Shown here piece by piece: positions 15,315-26,039 of a stretch of 27,893 nucleotides of DNA. The notes under the pieces are model-generated. The model saw only the letters and a list, made by a program, of their open reading frames with translations. It was not told the origin of the DNA and searched no databases. The translations under genes were made by a program, and so were the position numbers. Each line of letters opens with the position of its first letter. The first letter of the stretch is position 1. Origin of the DNA: a virus. The stretch lies in IMG/VR virus record IMGVR_UViG_3300025897_000059, positions 1 through 27,893 of that record; one strand, written 5' to 3'.

Positions 15315-18300
15315 TTATTGTTTAATTATTTTATGTGTTATTGTCTTATTGTTATATGTCATATATAATACATATATACCGTTAGAATATTCGCTTAAAT
15401 CAATTTGTTTTATATTATCACCAGATATAATTAATTCACCTAAAGGACCGTATAAATCAATTCTTGCGTCTTTTTTATATTCTAAATTAACAATATTTCT
15501 TGTTGGGTTAGGGTAAATCATAATATTATTTTCTCTTAAGAGCTCATTAATATTTGTAGGCATACCTAATTGACAGTAATCATATAATTGAACACAATTA
15601 ACATCCCAATCATCTGTACAACAGTATTCATCAACATCAATTACCCAAGCATAACATTCATCATTTAACCAATAAGGTATTCCAGGCCCACCATAACAAC
15701 CTGCATCATATAAACAAGCAGTTGAATCTGAAACGTTTGCTGTTGGATCAAAATTATAAGCAGCTACGTCAGTACAACCAGTAATAATTGTTACACATGA
15801 ACCATCATCAAAACATGCTGCAATATTATAATTTAGTGCTGATGGGTCAGTACATCCTGATATATAACAACATGAATTATCTGATGTGTTGGCTAAAGGA
15901 TCATAATTAAATGCGTTTATATCATTACACCCATAAACAAATGGTTCACAGCTTCCATTATCTACATTTGCTAGTGGATTATAATTAAACATAGTACTAT
16001 CTGTACAACCATAAATTGGTAATATACATGAACCATCATCTGTATTTGCTGATTGGTTATAATTTAAAGCATTTGGGTTAGTACAACCATAAACAAATGG
16101 TATACAAGTTCCGTTATCAGTGTTTGCTAATGGATTATAATTAAACATTGTTGAATCTGTACAACCATATATTGGATTTATACAACTTCCATCATCAGTA
16201 TTTGCAAGTGGATTATAATTTATTGCTATTGGATTAGTACATCCATAAACATATCCTATACAAGTATTATTATCTGTATTTGCTAATGGGTCATAGTTAA
16301 ATGCTGTTGAGTCTGTACAACCATAAACAAATGGTATACATGATCCATTGTCTGTATTTGCAAATGGAGCGTAGTTAAACATTGTATTATCAGTACAACC
16401 ATAAATAAATGGAATACAAGAACCATCATCAGTGTTAGCAAATGGATCATAATTAAATTGAGATGGATTTGTACATCCTAAAATTGGATAAACACACCCA
16501 TTATTTACGTTTGCTGTTGAATCATAATTAAGAGCAGTAGCATCAGTACAACCAATTATAACTGGTACACATGAACCATCATCTGTATTGGCATTTAAAT
16601 CAAAATTAAATGCTGTTGGGTCAGTACATCCATATATTGGGTAAATACATCCTGAGTTTGTATTTGCTAGTGAATCAAAATTTAACGCAGTAGGGTCAGT
16701 ACATCCTATAATTACAGGAACACAACTTCCATCGTCTGTGTTTGCATTAGGATCATAATTAAATGAATTTGGATTAGTACAACCAAATGTAGGGTAAATA
16801 CATCCTACATTAGTATTTGCTAATGAGTTAAAGTTTATAGCAGTAGAATCAGTACATCCATAAATGTAAGGTACACATGAACCATCATCTACATTTGCGT
16901 TTACATCATAATTAAATGCTGTAGGGTTAGTACATCCATAAACTGGATACACACAACCTGTATTTACGTTTGCTGTTGAATCGTAATTTAAAGCAGTTGG
17001 ATCATTACATCCTAATATAAATGGAATACACGAACCATCATCTGTATTAGCTAAAGGATCATAATTAAATTGGGTTGGGTCAGTACAACCATAATAAAAA
17101 GGTATACAACCAACGTTAGTATTTGCAAGTGGATCATAATTCCAAGCTGTAGAATCTGTACATCCATAAATTATTGGTAAACAAGATCCATCGTCTACAT
17201 TTGCAAGTAAATTATAATTAAATGCATTAGGGTTAGTACAACCATAAATAGGATAAATACATCCTGAATTAGTATTAGCTAAGCTATCATAATTAAGCGC
17301 AGTAGGATCCGTACATCCTATTGTAACTGGTACACATGAACCATCATCTACGTTTGCATTTACATCATAATTAAACGCTGAAGGATCTGTACAACCATAA
17401 ACTGGATAAGTACATCCAAAATTAACATTTGCTGTTGAATCGTAATTTAAAGCTGATGCATCAGTACAACCAATAACTATTGGTTGACATGAACCATCGT
17501 CTGTATTTGCATTAGGATTGTAATTGAAAGCAGATGGATCTGTACAACCTAATAATACTGGTATACAAGAACCATTATTTGTATTTGCATTAGTGTTAAA
17601 ATTAAATGCTAAAGGATCAGTACAACCAAATATTACTGGTATACAACTTCCATCATCAGTGTTAGCTGCTGCATTATAATTAAACATTGTATCATCCATA
17701 CATCCTAATATTACTGGAATACATGATGCTGGATCGTTTGTGTTAGCTGATGGGTTAAAATTAAATGCAGTTGAATCCATACATCCTATTACTTCAGCTA
17801 CACAACTACCATCATCAGTGTTAGCTAAAGGATCATAATTAAATGCTAAAGAATTAGTACAACCTAAAATAACTGGAACACATGAACCATCATCTGTGTT
17901 TGCACTATCTATATAATTAAATGCCGTTGAATCAGTACAACCAAATATAGCATCTATACAATAATCACCACAATAAGGTATTGCTGAATATGTTGTCCAA
18001 AAAGGGAATGAAAATGATTGTAATGCACCTTGACCATTATTTGCAAAAGGATTAGTTCCTTCGTGCATTAATACAACACCATTTGCATTTGTTAACTTAA
18101 ATGAATTGTGCCAAGTTTGAAATTGTACTTCTGCTGGAGGTTGTTGTGGTCCACCAACTTCAAAGTAATATACATTTACTGGTATACCAGCATCTAATAC
18201 TAATAAAAATGAATCTTGATAACTACCAGGACCCATTGTAAATGTACCAAAATTAATCCCATTTTGATAAACACCTAAATATGAATTACCCCAACCATCA

Positions 18301-19712
18301 CCACCAGCATCTCCAATCCATAATTGATATTGACAATCAGGTACTATATCATTAATAGTTGCATTAGGATCATAATTAAAAGCTGAAGGATCAGTACATC
18401 CATAAACGTGTAAATTTGCACATGAACCATCATCAACAGTTGCTAATGGATCGAATTCTTGGTAATCATCATCTGTACAACCATATACTGGAGGAGCAGA
18501 TAAACATGGTACACCGAATTGTTGTCCTGAATATAATATATTTCCAAATCCAGGATTATCCATATACCAAATAGTATCTCCTAAACAATCATAAATAACA
18601 ATCATACCATCTAATGAACCACCAGAAGTAGTTCCTGCCATACCATCACCATATGTATCTGTTACTATTAATTCAAAGCCTGCTGTTTGGTCTACACAAA
18701 AAGTGTAAGTGTAAGTTTGACCAATATCATTAAAATTATATGCTCCTGGAAGTTCTTCTTGTAATATACCATATGCACCACTTGTTATAGACCAACCAGT
18801 TTCACTTGGCCAATTATCAAATGTAATTTCCATTGTAATTTGATAAGTTGTATTAGTATCACAAGTTGTACCTGAACATGAACCATCATCAAATGTAGCC
18901 CATGGGTTAAATGTAGGTTGTGTTGGATCTGTACATCCCGCTATACAAGAAGTAGGAGTATATGCCATAGTATCCGAAAAAGTACTATCTGCAAATTCTA
19001 CCATACCATAATGTTCTACTGACCAATTAGGTGGCATTTGACCATTACCCGCATATACTGCAAAATCTTGTTGATTAGGACCAAGTCCATATTGAAAAGG
19101 ACCAACACCATTTTCATTCCAATACCAAAATCTAACTGGATTACAATTACCATTTGATATGTCGTTTTGCCAAAAGAATTGAACTAATGTTTGTCCTGTT
19201 GGTAGACAAGTTTGTTGTACAGTATCAGATAAAAGTCCACCACAAGTTGGATATGTACAAGGACCAGGGAAGTATGCTGTTGAGTCATAGTTTAATCCAT
19301 TAGGATCTAAACAACCAAATGTAGGAGGAGCACAAGGTGCAACAGTTAATGTTTGTACTAAACTGTCTCCAAAATCACCAGCAACATACATTAAAGTATC
19401 TTGACATGCATTACTAATCATAAACCAACCATCAGTCCCACCCCATTGAGATGAACCTAATCCATCACCAAAAGAATCATATATACCAGCAATTATGGTA
19501 CCACCAAGTTGAACAATAGTATCATACATTGTATTAGGTAGCATATTACTATCATTTTCTATAATAATAGGTGAACCTCCAGGAGGTGTAATATTCCAAC
19601 TTGTTTCAGACGGATAATTGTCTGTCATTAATTGGATGTGAATCCAAGAACCTTGTGTATAACCTAAAAAAGGTATTAAAATTGTTAGTAGTAATATCTG
19701 TATTTTTTTCAT
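15315..19712 (-). CDS. Giant T9SS-secreted Cys-repeat protein
   Basis: A 1465-residue protein. It has an N-terminal Sec signal peptide (about 1-19, M-K-K-I then a hydrophobic core ending G-Y-T-Q). Three beta-sandwich-like domains at about 23-130, 285-405 and 465-580 carry D-x-(Y/F)-G-D-G or related turns. Scattered Cys repeats are followed by 29 consecutive 25-26-residue repeats of the form G-C-T-D-P-x-A-x-N-Y-x-x-x-A-N-x-D-D-G-S-C. A Cys-rich segment follows. The C-terminal ~75 residues (I-Y-P-N-P-T-x-N ... L-S-x-Y-x-x-G-I-Y ... K-I-I-K) match the type A sorting domain of the Bacteroidetes type IX secretion system. The host T9SS should therefore export it to the cell surface or medium. Phage-directed surface remodelling, adhesion or superinfection exclusion are possible roles. 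It is the largest gene here. Confidence 0.9.
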   Translation of the reverse strand: MKKIQILLLTILIPFLGYTQGSWIHIQLMTDNYPSETSWNITPPGGSPIIIENDSNMLPNTMYDTIVQLGGTIIAGIYDSFGDGLGSSQWGGTDGWFMISNACQDTLMYVAGDFGDSLVQTLTVAPCAPPTFGCLDPNGLNYDSTAYFPGPCTYPTCGGLLSDTVQQTCLPTGQTLVQFFWQNDISNGNCNPVRFWYWNENGVGPFQYGLGPNQQDFAVYAGNGQMPPNWSVEHYGMVEFADSTFSDTMAYTPTSCIAGCTDPTQPTFNPWATFDDGSCSGTTCDTNTTYQITMEITFDNWPSETGWSITSGAYGILQEELPGAYNFNDIGQTYTYTFCVDQTAGFELIVTDTYGDGMAGTTSGGSLDGMIVIYDCLGDTIWYMDNPGFGNILYSGQQFGVPCLSAPPVYGCTDDDYQEFDPLATVDDGSCANLHVYGCTDPSAFNYDPNATINDIVPDCQYQLWIGDAGGDGWGNSYLGVYQNGINFGTFTMGPGSYQDSFLLVLDAGIPVNVYYFEVGGPQQPPAEVQFQTWHNSFKLTNANGVVLMHEGTNPFANNGQGALQSFSFPFWTTYSAIPYCGDYCIDAIFGCTDSTAFNYIDSANTDDGSCVPVILGCTNSLAFNYDPLANTDDGSCVAEVIGCMDSTAFNFNPSANTNDPASCIPVILGCMDDTMFNYNAAANTDDGSCIPVIFGCTDPLAFNFNTNANTNNGSCIPVLLGCTDPSAFNYNPNANTDDGSCQPIVIGCTDASALNYDSTANVNFGCTYPVYGCTDPSAFNYDVNANVDDGSCVPVTIGCTDPTALNYDSLANTNSGCIYPIYGCTNPNAFNYNLLANVDDGSCLPIIYGCTDSTAWNYDPLANTNVGCIPFYYGCTDPTQFNYDPLANTDDGSCIPFILGCNDPTALNYDSTANVNTGCVYPVYGCTNPTAFNYDVNANVDDGSCVPYIYGCTDSTAINFNSLANTNVGCIYPTFGCTNPNSFNYDPNANTDDGSCVPVIIGCTDPTALNFDSLANTNSGCIYPIYGCTDPTAFNFDLNANTDDGSCVPVIIGCTDATALNYDSTANVNNGCVYPILGCTNPSQFNYDPFANTDDGSCIPFIYGCTDNTMFNYAPFANTDNGSCIPFVYGCTDSTAFNYDPLANTDNNTCIGYVYGCTNPIAINYNPLANTDDGSCINPIYGCTDSTMFNYNPLANTDNGTCIPFVYGCTNPNALNYNQSANTDDGSCILPIYGCTDSTMFNYNPLANVDNGSCEPFVYGCNDINAFNYDPLANTSDNSCCYISGCTDPSALNYNIAACFDDGSCVTIITGCTDVAAYNFDPTANVSDSTACLYDAGCYGGPGIPYWLNDECYAWVIDVDEYCCTDDWDVNCVQLYDYCQLGMPTNINELLRENNIMIYPNPTRNIVNLEYKKDARIDLYGPLGELIISGDNIKQIDLSEYSNGIYVLYMTYNNKTITHKIIKQ
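15706..17945 (-). repeat. Coding tandem repeat array, 29 units of ~75-78 bp
   Basis: This array lies inside the T9SS cargo gene. By eye I count 29 adjacent units, and four more degenerate copies lie earlier in the gene near 19310, 18935, 18480 and 18400. For at least seven consecutive pairs, two subtypes alternate. A 26-residue unit ending D-D-G-S-C is followed by a 25-residue unit ending N-x-G-C, giving a higher-order unit of about 51 residues (153 bp). Nucleotide divergence between units is substantial, so the array is old rather than a fresh expansion. It is protein-coding, not CRISPR. Confidence 0.9.
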
Positions 19713-21857: not shown

Positions 21858-21887
21858 GAAAAAAAAGAGCAGCCTGTGGCTGCTCTT
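21858..21887 (-). terminator. Rho-independent terminator of the tmRNA gene
   Basis: On the minus strand, AAGAGCAGCC / GGCTGCTCTT forms a perfect 10-bp stem with a 3-base loop (positions 21887-21865), immediately followed by a run of T. It ends the structural RNA transcript and insulates it from the barrel gene that starts at 21824. Confidence 0.9.
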
Positions 21888-22109
21888 AAGAACTTTAACG
21901 ATATATGTCCTATTATACCCGTTGGTGTTGGGTGCCTAATTAGGCAGCCATAGCATACACTGACTCTTCAGTAGCTACAGTTTCTGTTGCCAGAAGTCTG
22001 ATTGCTGCTAATGAAGCGAAAATACCTGCTTTCACCGATTTAATCTGTGTGCCGATTACGCGTTTGATCTTCATCATATCCTTACTTCCTGTCAAATCCA
22101 GTCACCCCC
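21888..22109 (-). ncRNA. tmRNA coding piece
   Basis: It begins with GGGGGTG, the D-like region and the 5' strand of helix 2. It continues through smaller helices, including TAATC/GATTA near 22058-22041 and TGAA(A)GC/GCTTCA near 22034-22011, and the GCAA hairpin. The tag frame and a stop-codon hairpin TGCCTAATTAGGCA (21946-21933) follow. A short ACCC/GGGT stem comes after the stop. Base composition is richer in G+C than the flanking genes, as expected for a structured RNA. The 3' end is not defined by sequence and lies before the terminator. Confidence 0.8.
21940..21975 (-). other. tmRNA proteolysis tag reading frame
   Basis: From the probable resume codon GCT (21975-21973) the frame reads A-T-E-E-S-V-Y-A-M-A-A and stops at TAA (21942-21940) in the loop of a hairpin, as in other tmRNAs. 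The A-x-A-A end is the signal recognised by ClpXP-type proteases. The length (11 codons) equals the E. coli tag. The resume codon is inferred from the tag length and from the GCAA hairpin ending 6 bases upstream. An upstream GCA (21990-21988) is inside that tetraloop and is less likely. Confidence 0.8.
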
Positions 22110-22125
22110 TAGGTATAAAAATTAG
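22110..22125 (-). other. tmRNA intervening segment removed during maturation
   Basis: Sixteen bases (CTAATTTTTATACCTA on the minus strand) join the acceptor 3' end to the 5' strand of the coding piece, so they would form the loop closing the acceptor stem in the precursor. In known permuted tmRNAs such a loop is excised by tRNA-type processing enzymes. The boundaries follow from the 7-bp acceptor stem. Confidence 0.75.
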
Positions 22126-22186
22126 TGGAGGTGGTGGGTTTCGAACCCACGTCCAAAAAAGCAGCTAATACAATTACTAGCGATCA
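22126..22186 (-). ncRNA. tmRNA acceptor piece
   Basis: This 5' part of the precursor contains the 3' strand of helix 2, the complete T arm and the acceptor 3' strand with discriminator A22126. The genome then reads CTA rather than CCA. The tail CCA would therefore be added after processing, as usual where it is not encoded. The 5' end near 22185 is inferred from promoter position. Confidence 0.8.
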
Positions 22187-22220
22187 CTTATATATATAAA
22201 AAACTAATTATTAATCCAAA
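22184..22220 (-). promoter_or_regulatory. Probable tmRNA promoter (Bacteroidetes type)
   Basis: On the minus strand TTTG (22220-22217) is followed after 18 bases by TATATATA (22198-22191), close to the Bacteroidetes -33/-7 consensus TTTG-N19-TAnnTTTG. The -33 element lies in the last codons of the upstream small gene. The predicted start is near 22185, just upstream of the helix 2 strand of the acceptor piece. Confidence 0.5.
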
Positions 22221-22724: not shown

Positions 22725-23075
22725 TTAAAATTTCTTTTTTCTACCACGTTTTTTAGGTTTATCTTCTGGAAAGAGTTTATAATGTTCTTTCCAATACGCT
22801 GTCTCAGTAATTTCCATCTTGATTTTGTCAACCTTAGTTGTTCTTTTTTTCCTGCCATTTTCGTGATATTTTGGGGTTTTTAAACGTTCTAATTTTTCAT
22901 ATAATTTTTCTAATTTATCATATGTTGTATCTGTCATTTCTACTAAATAAGGACCTTTATCAAATTTATCTAAATCATAATACCAGATAGTATCATCATA
23001 TACTCTAGTAAATTGTCTAGGAGCTTCAATTGGTTGTTCTGATGGTCTTCCTCTATTTTCTACTCTTTTTTTCAT
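22725..23075 (-). CDS. Lys-rich hypothetical protein
   Basis: A 116-residue protein. It has a basic start (M-K-K-R-V-E-N-R-G-R-P), a central part with W-Y-Y-D-L-D-K-F-D-K-G-P-Y and a helical Y-D-K-L-E-K-L-Y-E-K-L, and a basic end K-K-R-G-R-K-K-K-F. The two R-G-R/basic ends resemble AT-hook or nucleic-acid-binding tails. The start overlaps the stop of the VWA gene by one base. No enzyme motif is visible. Confidence 0.65.
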   Translation of the reverse strand: MKKRVENRGRPSEQPIEAPRQFTRVYDDTIWYYDLDKFDKGPYLVEMTDTTYDKLEKLYEKLERLKTPKYHENGRKKRTTKVDKIKMEITETAYWKEHYKLFPEDKPKKRGRKKKF

Positions 23076-24892
23076 TATGATACCAAGTTTTGTTTTAAGA
23101 ATAAATTATTTAATGTCTTAGTAACTTCATACATGTTTTTAGGATCAATAAATGATGCTTCTTTACCATACATAATTTGAAAATTTTCCATCAATTCTTC
23201 TTCTTTAGTTTGTGTTGTAGATGATTGTATAAAATAGCTTAATATATTAACCCCTTTCTTTTTAATATTTTTTACAGCCTTGGCAGTGTCTAATATAGCT
23301 TCTTCACCTTTATATGTAAATTTACCATATCTTTCAAATGTTGGATAACCATCACTCATATTAATTAAATAACTGTCAAGATAATATGATGAATTTGGTA
23401 TATACTCATTTAATGCGTTTAAACACATTCCTTCTGGTGTTAATCCCTTTGTTTTATAATGGCCTAATCTTTTTAAGTCAGCTAATGTGTGTTTTTTACT
23501 ATTAAAGGCTAAAATTAATAATGGAACCTGTGCAGTCATAGAGGATTTACTTAAATCTCTGCCGGTTGTTCTAATTGATATAGTTAAATCAATATTATTC
23601 ATATGTAAAGAAATATAACCTAATGCAATTGTATTAATTAATGTTTGCCACCACTTTGTACCTTCCATACTACCACTACCATCAATTGTAACATGTAAAC
23701 TAATTGGCTTGTAATTTGCTCTGTCTATTTTATAAAATAAATCATCTTCAAAATTAGCAGCATAAATTCGTCTAGGATCAATTTTACCTGACTTTAATCG
23801 TTTTGATGCTAATGTTATTTGTTCATTTCTAATTCGTAATTTACGTAGTAACTTTTTTCCTTTAGCAACACCCTCATCAATTTGTTTATTCATTAAATTA
23901 ACTCTACCAAATACTTCATATAAGTTACTTTCTATAATTGTAGGTGTAATACCATCAATAACATGAACAGGTATGTTTGTGTGTTCAATTCCTTTACTGT
24001 CTGTTGCTTTTACATTTTTTATGTCAATATTAGACTTTGAAATTGCTTCAACTTGCTTTCTTTCTTTATGAGTTATTGGTGATTTATATACATTACCTTT
24101 TAAGAATTCTTGTTGTTTACTAAATGCTTTTTTAATTTCTTCCTTTGACGTTTTATTTTGTTTAGCACCTTTTCTGTTTTCTTGTGCCTGGTGTTTATCT
24201 TTTGAATTCAAAATAAAATGCATGTTTATTAGTTGATATATTGTAATAGCCAATTCTAATGAATGTTTAGTTGATGTTAATCTACCAATATTTTCTAAAT
24301 CAACTACTTTATATACTTGAGGTAACATTTTAAGTGCTGTAGGATCAGCATTTTTATTAAACATATTAATAATTCTAAACATATAATGTTCCCAATTTTC
24401 CCCTCTATATTCTTTACCTTTTAACCCTTTATCTACTGTCTTGCTGTAAAAATATCTATCATACATTGCCCTATAATAATCTTGATAACCTGGAGCGTTA
24501 TGATAAACTAAATTGTCTATCCTTTTATCTTCAATAAAATTTAAAAGAAGTTCGATCCATCTACGTCCCCCCATTAAATTAACTTCAAGTAAACGATTTG
24601 CAATTTTCTTTAACACAAAAAAGTCCGTGTATTTACAATGCGCAGCTTCATGAAGCGCAGTACCTATAACAGCGTCTAAATTACGCGTGTTAATCGTTGA
24701 TGATATCACTATCTTTTTACCATCTGTCATTGAATCACAATTATTATTTGGGATAAATTCAATAGGTATCTCTTTACCTGTTTGTATTTTTACAAAATTA
24801 GAAATTGCACGTTGTGTGTTAGCTAATTCTATTAAATTAAAATTTTCATTATTATTTATATTATTAGTAAGCCAAAATTTGGATGTCTTCAT
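23075..24892 (-). CDS. HExxH metalloprotease-like + VWA domain protein (CobT-like)
   Basis: A 605-residue protein with two parts. The N-terminal part has H81-E-A-A-H85, a gluzincin/metallopeptidase-like zinc motif, followed by N-F-I-E-D-K-R-I-D at 118-126, which could supply the third ligand and is typical of CobT-type phage proteins. A Lys/Gln-rich linker covers about 230-290. The C-terminal VWA domain has an intact MIDAS: D404-G-S-G-S-M409, and a later M-S-D-G-Y-P. CobT-like VWA proteins work with a MoxR/CobS-type AAA+ ATPase. CobS/CobT-like genes occur in T4-like marine phages, and the partner ATPase is not in this window. It overlaps the upstream lipoprotein gene by 29 bases. True cobaltochelatase activity is unlikely to be its role, and remodelling of a protein complex is more plausible. 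Confidence 0.85.
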   Translation of the reverse strand: MKTSKFWLTNNINNNENFNLIELANTQRAISNFVKIQTGKEIPIEFIPNNNCDSMTDGKKIVISSTINTRNLDAVIGTALHEAAHCKYTDFFVLKKIANRLLEVNLMGGRRWIELLLNFIEDKRIDNLVYHNAPGYQDYYRAMYDRYFYSKTVDKGLKGKEYRGENWEHYMFRIINMFNKNADPTALKMLPQVYKVVDLENIGRLTSTKHSLELAITIYQLINMHFILNSKDKHQAQENRKGAKQNKTSKEEIKKAFSKQQEFLKGNVYKSPITHKERKQVEAISKSNIDIKNVKATDSKGIEHTNIPVHVIDGITPTIIESNLYEVFGRVNLMNKQIDEGVAKGKKLLRKLRIRNEQITLASKRLKSGKIDPRRIYAANFEDDLFYKIDRANYKPISLHVTIDGSGSMEGTKWWQTLINTIALGYISLHMNNIDLTISIRTTGRDLSKSSMTAQVPLLILAFNSKKHTLADLKRLGHYKTKGLTPEGMCLNALNEYIPNSSYYLDSYLINMSDGYPTFERYGKFTYKGEEAILDTAKAVKNIKKKGVNILSYFIQSSTTQTKEEELMENFQIMYGKEASFIDPKNMYEVTKTLNNLFLKQNLVS

Positions 24893-25556: not shown

Positions 25557-26039
25557 TTAAATGTATTTTTGTCCTAAATCTTCTACAGCTTCTTTTGCTT
25601 CATTTAAAGATATTGCGAAAAACTCACGATCTTTTGATATTCTGTGACCCTGTAGTTGTTTATGGACTTCACCTTCTAATCTTTCTGCGTTAAAGCAACG
25701 AAATGCCCATTCTAAAGTAAAAGGAGTCGCAACTGATGTGGATCTAGACAATTGTTTAACGCGCTTGTCAACATCTTCATGTGATGTGTAGCCAATTTTA
25801 TACATTCCTGGCTGAGATTTATTAGATAATATATAAACCCATGAATCTCCATCGCCTTTACGACCTTCATACATTCTTACTCGGCGGGGTAAATAATAAG
25901 TCACATCTTCCCAATCTTCCCCACGTTTTGATGGTGATAATGTATAGTATGCTGCATCATCTAAGTCAGATTTCATGTCGTTTCTTAAAGGTACAAATTG
26001 TTTTGCTTCTTCTACTGTTATAAATTCTAAAGATCCCAT
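25557..26039 (-). CDS. GIY-YIG (T5orf172/MUG113-type) nuclease-like protein
   Basis: A 160-residue protein. The N-terminal 60 residues are variable and charged. Residues about 67-148 match the T5orf172 branch of GIY-YIG: W-V-Y-I-L-S at 67-72, K-I-G-Y-T at 81-85, R93 in D-K-R-V-K-Q-L, A-E-R-L-E-G-E-V-H-K-Q-L at 118-129, and R-E-F-F near 138-141. The catalytic Tyr, Arg, Glu and His positions all appear present, so it may cut DNA. The family is widespread in phages, with homing or regulatory roles. Its end abuts promoter P1. The start overlaps a tiny ORF (26027-26098). Confidence 0.8.
   Translation of the reverse strand: MGSLEFITVEEAKQFVPLRNDMKSDLDDAAYYTLSPSKRGEDWEDVTYYLPRRVRMYEGRKGDGDSWVYILSNKSQPGMYKIGYTSHEDVDKRVKQLSRSTSVATPFTLEWAFRCFNAERLEGEVHKQLQGHRISKDREFFAISLNEAKEAVEDLGQKYI

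Follow-up and report, generated by a model that had tools for sequence, protein, structure and literature searches.

We identified a tmRNA gene in permuted order on the minus strand of an IMG/VR virus record of 27,893 bases, the whole of which was analyzed and is called the window below. The gene occupies positions 22186-21889, and its terminator reaches position 21859. To judge from its sequence, the locus is a real phage-encoded, circularly permuted, two-piece tmRNA gene. We consider it very probable that it represents a working type of permuted tmRNA in a myovirus that infects marine Bacteroidota, a reading that takes in presumed steps of processing, charging and tagging. Three of its features look new: pseudoknot 1 is absent, with a covarying 5-bp hairpin in its place; the tag extends to 37 amino acids; and its 27 extra codons form a hairpin of about 93 nt. 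A first-pass annotation of this DNA had noted neither the missing pseudoknot, nor the resume hairpin, nor the length and structure of the tag.

That annotation had proposed a circularly permuted phage tmRNA, and had suggested a search with permuted covariance models and an analysis of covariation in related phages as checks. The tmRNA_permuted model (RF04321) matches positions 22185-21940 at 67.5 bits, above its cut-off of 47 bits (E value 3.3e-11 for the whole window), and this match, together with the covariation across relatives, bears out the proposal. ARAGORN also calls a permuted tmRNA in the window. In the covariance-model search of the window, the standard tmRNA model gave nothing above its cut-off, and the window holds no standard-order tmRNA that could otherwise account for the pieces. 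Two lineage-specific models scored under their cut-offs, namely cyano_tmRNA (RF01851; 48.1 versus 70 bits) and alpha_tmRNA (RF01849; 6.3 versus 50 bits). A blastn comparison of the window tmRNA with cultured phages returned no match.

Within this single gene, the T arm and the 3' acceptor strand lie ahead of the 5' acceptor strand and the tag frame, and the acceptor stem has seven pairs, G3-U70 among them. The tag frame has a resume codon, a stop codon and a hydrophobic end (GTQIK...AMAA, then stop). Coordinates that we computed directly agree with those previously given for the acceptor stem with its G3-U pair, the 16-nt spacer and the terminator. The last of these, described earlier as strong, is the sole terminator-like site in the stretch, where 0.2 would be expected. 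The elements of the locus are as follows.

22187-22203, minus strand: A/T-rich box directly upstream of the tmRNA, a possible promoter element judging by its position
22182-22186, minus strand: helix 2c, acceptor-piece strand UGAUC, pairing with 22069-22065 (covariation)
22168-22174, minus strand: helix 2b, acceptor-piece strand, pairing with 22079-22073 (covariation)
22157-22160, minus strand: helix 2a, acceptor-piece strand, pairing with 22090-22087 and extendable in the window (covariation)
22134-22150, minus strand: T arm, GUGGG-UUCGAAA-CCCAC (RF04321 alignment, covariation)
22127-22133, minus strand: 3' acceptor strand, CACCUCC (RF04321, covariation)
22126, minus strand: discriminator A (sequence)
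22110-22125, minus strand: 16-nt intervening sequence, presumably removed from the precursor
22103-22109, minus strand: 5' acceptor strand, GGGGGUG, with G3 of G3-U70 (covariation)
22091-22102, minus strand: D-loop-like region, ACUGGAUUUGAC (RF04321 alignment)
22087-22090, minus strand: helix 2a, coding-piece strand (covariation)
22073-22079, minus strand: helix 2b, coding-piece strand (covariation)
22065-22069, minus strand: helix 2c, coding-piece strand (covariation)
22041-22058, minus strand: resume hairpin, UAAUC-GGCACACA-GAUUA, whose loop begins at the resume codon GGC (relatives)
22053-22051, minus strand: resume codon GGC
21940-22053, minus strand: tag frame of 37 codons and a stop, GTQIKSVKAGIFASLAAIRLLATETVATEESVYAMAA (open and of equal length in all nine complete copies)
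21945-22037, minus strand: long imperfect hairpin of the extra tag codons (covariation)
21934-21945, minus strand: short palindromic stem around the stop codon, at the position of helix 5 (sequence)
21889-21923, minus strand: predicted H-type pseudoknot after the tag (prediction)
21859-21887, minus strand: intrinsic terminator (hairpin 21887-21865 and a T run)

A scan for sigma-70-type promoters found none. In 41 of 64 relatives, a TATTTATA-like box occupies a constant position immediately ahead of the tmRNA, the one that the A/T-rich box takes up in the window; it is possibly a phage promoter element.

Relatives of the gene were collected from IMG/VR by using a pattern that combines the T arm, spacer and D region, which retrieved 49 contigs, and a second pattern with a D-loop variant, which retrieved 27 contigs, two of them already in the first set. 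In this way, we obtained about 70 related phage loci with the same permuted order, about 64 of which belong to the same close family; more-distant permuted tmRNAs are L024, L029, L038, L042, L086 and L092. Close relatives have an intervening sequence of 16-23 nt. Several bases (TCCA, GG.G and TTTGAC) are set by the patterns, so that only positions left free count as evidence; the G3-U70 pair of the relatives is itself fixed by the search pattern.

Covariation at the free positions was assessed in 56 distinct sequences. The acceptor stem is 100% paired, with 22 doubly changed cells compared with a shuffled mean of 6, and its fifth pair varies among C-G, G-C and U-A. The T stem is likewise 100% paired (43 doubly changed cells; shuffled mean, 13). 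In the helices that bridge the two pieces, paired cells amount to 97.1% for helix 2c (46 doubly changed; shuffled mean, 10), 97.4% for helix 2b (23; shuffled mean, 3) and 88.8% for helix 2a (55; shuffled mean, 17). Sliding one strand by 1-3 columns, as a control, destroyed the pairing. The covariation that had been suggested as a check is thus strong for the acceptor and helix 2 in related phages, with 89-100% pairing and compensatory changes. Helix 2 is indeed interrupted, as the first-pass annotation held, but the 8 + 7 pairs given there do not stand: comparison of the relatives favors a description as three helices, of 4, 7 and 5 pairs.

These pairings also bear on two other explanations of the locus. 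It could be an ordinary small protein gene, read from ATGATG at position 22080 (MMKIKRVIGTQIK...), and in the window the in-frame ATG does have an AAGGAU-like ribosome site. This explanation is very improbable, given that L039, L040, L011 and others have no in-frame ATG there and that covariation shows the start region to be paired with the acceptor piece. Still more improbable, to the point that we give it almost no weight, is a decaying fragment of a host tmRNA gene acquired by the phage. Phages can integrate at ssrA and carry pieces of it (PMC9004378), but the gene in the window is complete, every helix exhibits compensatory changes across the phage family, and synteny is conserved in the long-tag clade.

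Two members of the long-tag set have unusual arrangements. In L054 (2354-2549, plus strand), the tag frame is intact but the 5' acceptor, the D region and the coding-piece strand of helix 2 are missing, owing to either a deletion or an assembly fault; the tmRNA gene is therefore not always intact. In L055 (4786-4860, minus strand), the tmRNA spacer encloses a complete tRNA-Ala(TGC) gene. A tRNA-Ala in the spacer has also been described for GCA-2688965, a permuted tmRNA labeled "archaeal" (PMC11915505); in view of the resemblance, this "archaeal" gene might be a phage contig.

A permuted phage tmRNA is in itself of a known kind, and annotated records extend this kind to Bacteroidota phages. Permuted tmRNAs have been reported from marine phages, with 53 of 133 unique phage tmRNA structures classed as two-piece (PMC9004378). 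We found that the annotated tmRNAs of two cultured Bacteroidota phages, Maribacter phage Panino (PP540027) and Chryseobacterium phage MA9V-3 (PV245944), score as permuted with RF04321 (62.2 and 64.7 bits, respectively). The earlier statement that none was known in Bacteroidota phages is consequently contradicted, and its claim to priority is weakened by these two phages and by the marine ones. We found no paper that describes a permuted tmRNA in Bacteroidota phages. Panino and MA9V-3 resemble the window in their permuted order, their Bacteroidota hosts and a stem loop that starts at the resume codon, but differ from it in sequence outside the tRNA-like part and in their tags of 16-17 amino acids.

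By analogy with the tmRNA family, the gene could operate as follows. According to sequence and covariation, the order of elements is helix-2 strand, T arm, 3' acceptor, spacer, 5' acceptor, D region, helix-2 strand, resume hairpin, tag frame, predicted pseudoknot and terminator. These would be transcribed as one precursor, from which RNase P and 3'-end processing would remove the spacer before CCA is added. The two pieces would stay joined through the acceptor stem and helix 2. Host alanyl-tRNA synthetase would charge the molecule by recognizing G3-U70, and host SmpB would carry it to stalled ribosomes. Translation would then resume at GGC (22053-22051) and add the 37-amino-acid tag ending in AMAA, which would mark the product for host proteases. 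Reliance on host SmpB is consistent with the result that no SmpB was found in 14 related phage records. The phage might in this way take over ribosome rescue, as the first-pass annotation suggested. Its likely benefit would be the recycling of ribosomes that stall during infection, but the degradation of truncated proteins or some property of the long tag may also be what it gains.

Alternatively, the RNA could be a decoy that titrates host SmpB or blocks host trans-translation. Such activity has been shown for a tag-less form of tmRNA in mycobacteriophage DS6A (PMC11915505, PMC4131195). Unlike DS6A, the window retains a tag frame, a stop codon, the helix 5 position and the predicted later pseudoknot, and we regard a decoy function as improbable.

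Within the preferred reading, that of a working-type tmRNA, the region between helix 2 and the tag is the first unusual element. Two-piece tmRNAs typically, but not strictly, have one pseudoknot on each side of the tag, termed PK1 and PK2 (PMC3985003). In the window, PK1 is absent, and a pseudoknot is predicted after the tag; the two-stem layout of this predicted pseudoknot appears to recur in most relatives. Only 6 nt separate helix 2c from the next stem, which leaves no room for pseudoknot 1. That next stem is the resume hairpin. In most relatives, it has a 5-bp stem and an 8-nt loop (UAACU-GGCGAACA-AGUUG), and throughout the family the stem has 4-5 pairs and the loop 8 nt, L088 being the sole exception among complete members. 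The closing pair varies among phages (U-A, A-U or C-G), as does the one after it (C-G or U-A). The loop begins exactly at GGC, and aligning the family with standard Bacteroidota tmRNAs (tags such as GENNYALAA) identifies this GGC as the resume codon.

A similar hairpin is present in Panino, L024 and L042 and, by eye, in L086 and L092, although in L086 the loop begins one base ahead of the resume codon. The continuous resume stem of MA9V-3 is shorter, at three pairs, and no resume hairpin was found in L029 or L038. Among standard Bacteroidota tmRNAs, one of ten (L098) has a comparable stem. According to a review, tagging needs pseudoknot 1, but an engineered small stable hairpin can substitute for it (PMC3968760). 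The family described here would be a natural case of such a replacement, in which pseudoknot 1 would have given way to a small hairpin whose loop opens with the resume codon. This family, which comprises more than 60 phage loci lacking pseudoknot 1 but conserving the hairpin, offers a natural test of what a tmRNA needs.

The second unusual element is the tag. The first-pass annotation had suspected an unusual tag, and this holds in part: the tag has 37 amino acids, compared with 10 in most relatives (GEQVELAMAA or similar) and 9 in standard Bacteroidota tmRNAs. A 37-amino-acid tag ending in AMAA is encoded in the window and in L039, L053, L055, L011, L040, L051, L052 and L054. A tenth long tag, in L087, is cut by the end of its contig, so that at least nine relatives besides the window carry one. 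The additional length always consists of the same insert of 27 codons, which the tag frame of this lineage would have gained and which also folds as a long hairpin. Standard annotation misreads or misses such tmRNA genes: the tag that ARAGORN assigns to the window (AATGCSFF...) was rejected in favor of the conserved GTQIKSVKAGIFASLAAIRLLATETVATEESVYAMAA, and on long-tag loci the program yields a wrong tag, a shortened one or none. A TGGC variant of the long-tag pattern matched a sole site, in L068, that proved unrelated.

Given a structured insert of this type, we weighed whether the 27 extra codons act purely as an RNA structure (for example, a protein-binding or stabilizing hairpin, or a palindromic insert) in which an open frame is merely tolerated. 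Strong covariation in the hairpin speaks for this reading. The extra codons form an imperfect hairpin of about 93 nt; when the resume hairpin is included, pairing extends to 96.4% of cells and ten pairs are changed on both sides, a level reached in 0 of 500 shuffles, and slid versions of the structure are 35-49% paired. In codon-shuffle tests, the long hairpin of the window is not more stable than the shuffled versions, but those of most relatives are, significantly. Pairwise dN/dS values among the long tags are mostly 0.6-1.0, indicating fast evolution at the protein level, as would also suit an RNA domain.

Several observations argue against a role for the RNA alone. The nine copies have no stop in the tag frame and no change of length, whereas the other two frames contain 19 and 23 stops, and 0.2% of column shuffles of the insert are free of stops. 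When neutral evolution is simulated along the insert's own tree, every copy retains an open frame in just 3.5% of runs, and the in-frame amino-acid identity of the insert exceeds that of 2000 of 2000 column shuffles. Also, no convincing second copy of the insert occurs elsewhere in the examined loci, apart from L087, which is another long-tag tmRNA. We therefore think that a purely structural insert is unlikely, if well worth keeping in mind. The open frame and the covarying hairpin together indicate that coding and RNA-structure constraints both act on the insert, and the dN/dS values suggest that the constraint on the peptide is modest.

What the peptide might do is a more speculative subject. 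Compared with PHROGs, the nine tag peptides gave a single match at chance level only, and a tblastn search of cultured phages with the tag gave none. AlphaFold2 models each of the nine tags as one long helix, which is weak evidence at a mean pLDDT of 67. One could imagine a dual-purpose element, in which a helical 37-amino-acid peptide has a function beyond that of a degradation mark (for example, the delivery of stalled proteins to a particular protease or to the membrane) and is encoded within a selected RNA hairpin, in a tmRNA that was separately permuted from the Bacteroidota type and whose pseudoknot 1 was naturally replaced by the hairpin at the resume codon. We hold this full combination to be doubtful. 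The long-tag clade nonetheless makes two questions accessible, namely the role of a much longer tag and the ability of rescued ribosomes to translate a structured frame.

With the two-piece tmRNAs of alphaproteobacteria, betaproteobacteria and cyanobacteria covered by RF04321, the window shares the order of elements, the acceptor stem with G3-U70, the T arm, the D region, a helix 2 that bridges the pieces and an alanine-rich tag end. It differs from these lineages in falling below the lineage models, in lacking pseudoknot 1, in having a resume context and tag start of the Bacteroidota type and in its long structured tag. The tmRNAs of Methylophilales phage Melnitz and of pelagimyophages (PMC9004378) are, like that of the window, phage-encoded, permuted and from marine myoviruses. 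That of Melnitz was reported to be related to alphaproteobacterial genes and to occur with a glutamine riboswitch (PMC9004378), whereas the window derives from a Bacteroidota phage and no riboswitch was found in it.

Standard Bacteroidota tmRNAs (L094-L103) match the window in the context before GGC and in the tag start GE; the likeness comprises the resume context ..AACUGGCGAA (in several), UUUGACAG and GGACGAGGGUUCGA. They differ in being one piece, in having pseudoknot 1 in a longer stretch between helix 2 and the tag, and in their 9-amino-acid tag. Cellulophaga phages Calle and phi38:1 (L104/L107) also encode a Bacteroidota phage tmRNA with a long alanine-rich tag, but in the standard gene order (RF00023). 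When read from GGA, the tag of Calle_1 has 30 amino acids, GNNTNAVNAQIEANMEAVNAILNLEVAVGV. In Bacteroidota phages, long alanine-rich tags may have more than one origin.

Other genes were noted in the window, the first of which informs on the host. They are these.

15315-19712, minus strand: 1465-amino-acid repeat protein with a C-terminal type IX secretion sorting domain (PF18962, 38 bits; TIGR04183, 37.8 bits)
23075-24892, minus strand: 605-amino-acid protein, weakly matched to a cobalamin biosynthesis family in PHROGs and conserved beside long-tag tmRNAs
25557-26039, minus strand: protein with a T5orf172 / MUG113 domain, likely a nuclease of the GIY-YIG type

Type IX secretion is a secretion system of Bacteroidota. 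The 1465-amino-acid protein contains many GCTDxxAxNY...DDGSC repeats, and all ten long-tag records that were searched have the type IX sorting domain, as do two short-tag records; the phage seems to make a protein for the secretion system of its host. Flavobacterium phage immuto has matches to the baseplate, phosphohydrolase and sigma-like proteins at 41-48%, and the record of Microcystis phage Mel-JY01 gives a slightly better match (49%) for the baseplate protein. A Bacteroidota host, as assumed in the first-pass annotation, is supported by the sorting domain and the Flavobacterium phage homologues.

The history of the gene appears to involve exchange. Long-tag phages share synteny around the tmRNA, and in trees of the tRNA-like and post-tag parts their loci form two supported groups. 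A close syntenic relative of the window, L044 (3389-3555, minus strand), has the short tag GEQVELAMAA, as a result of either allele exchange or loss of the insert. In a tree of the 605-amino-acid neighbor, L044 stands beside long-tag loci, with the forks open. This disagreement in detail between the trees of the neighboring protein and of the tmRNA suggests that tmRNA alleles are exchanged between phages, and as such mosaic exchange is likely, we do not state a number of origins for the long tag. The resume context, UUUGACAG and the T arm are nearer to standard Bacteroidota tmRNAs than to the consensus for the three permuted lineages known so far. A gene of the Bacteroidota type may thus have undergone a permutation of its own, a hint to be weighed against the shortness of the sequences, the presence of TTTGAC in the search patterns and possible convergence to host machinery.

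One close relative came from a bacterial genome assembly. Contig L056 (CAJQJC010000010.1), from a species-representative genome labeled Pelagibacter in GTDB, shares 99.7% identity with the window across 6443 bases. The same genome also carries an alphaproteobacterial permuted tmRNA of its own, which gave no match to cultured phages. Since this own tmRNA is present, L056 is most simply explained as a misbinned phage contig, and such a contig in a Pelagibacter metagenome-assembled genome can mislead surveys of tmRNA form by bacterium.
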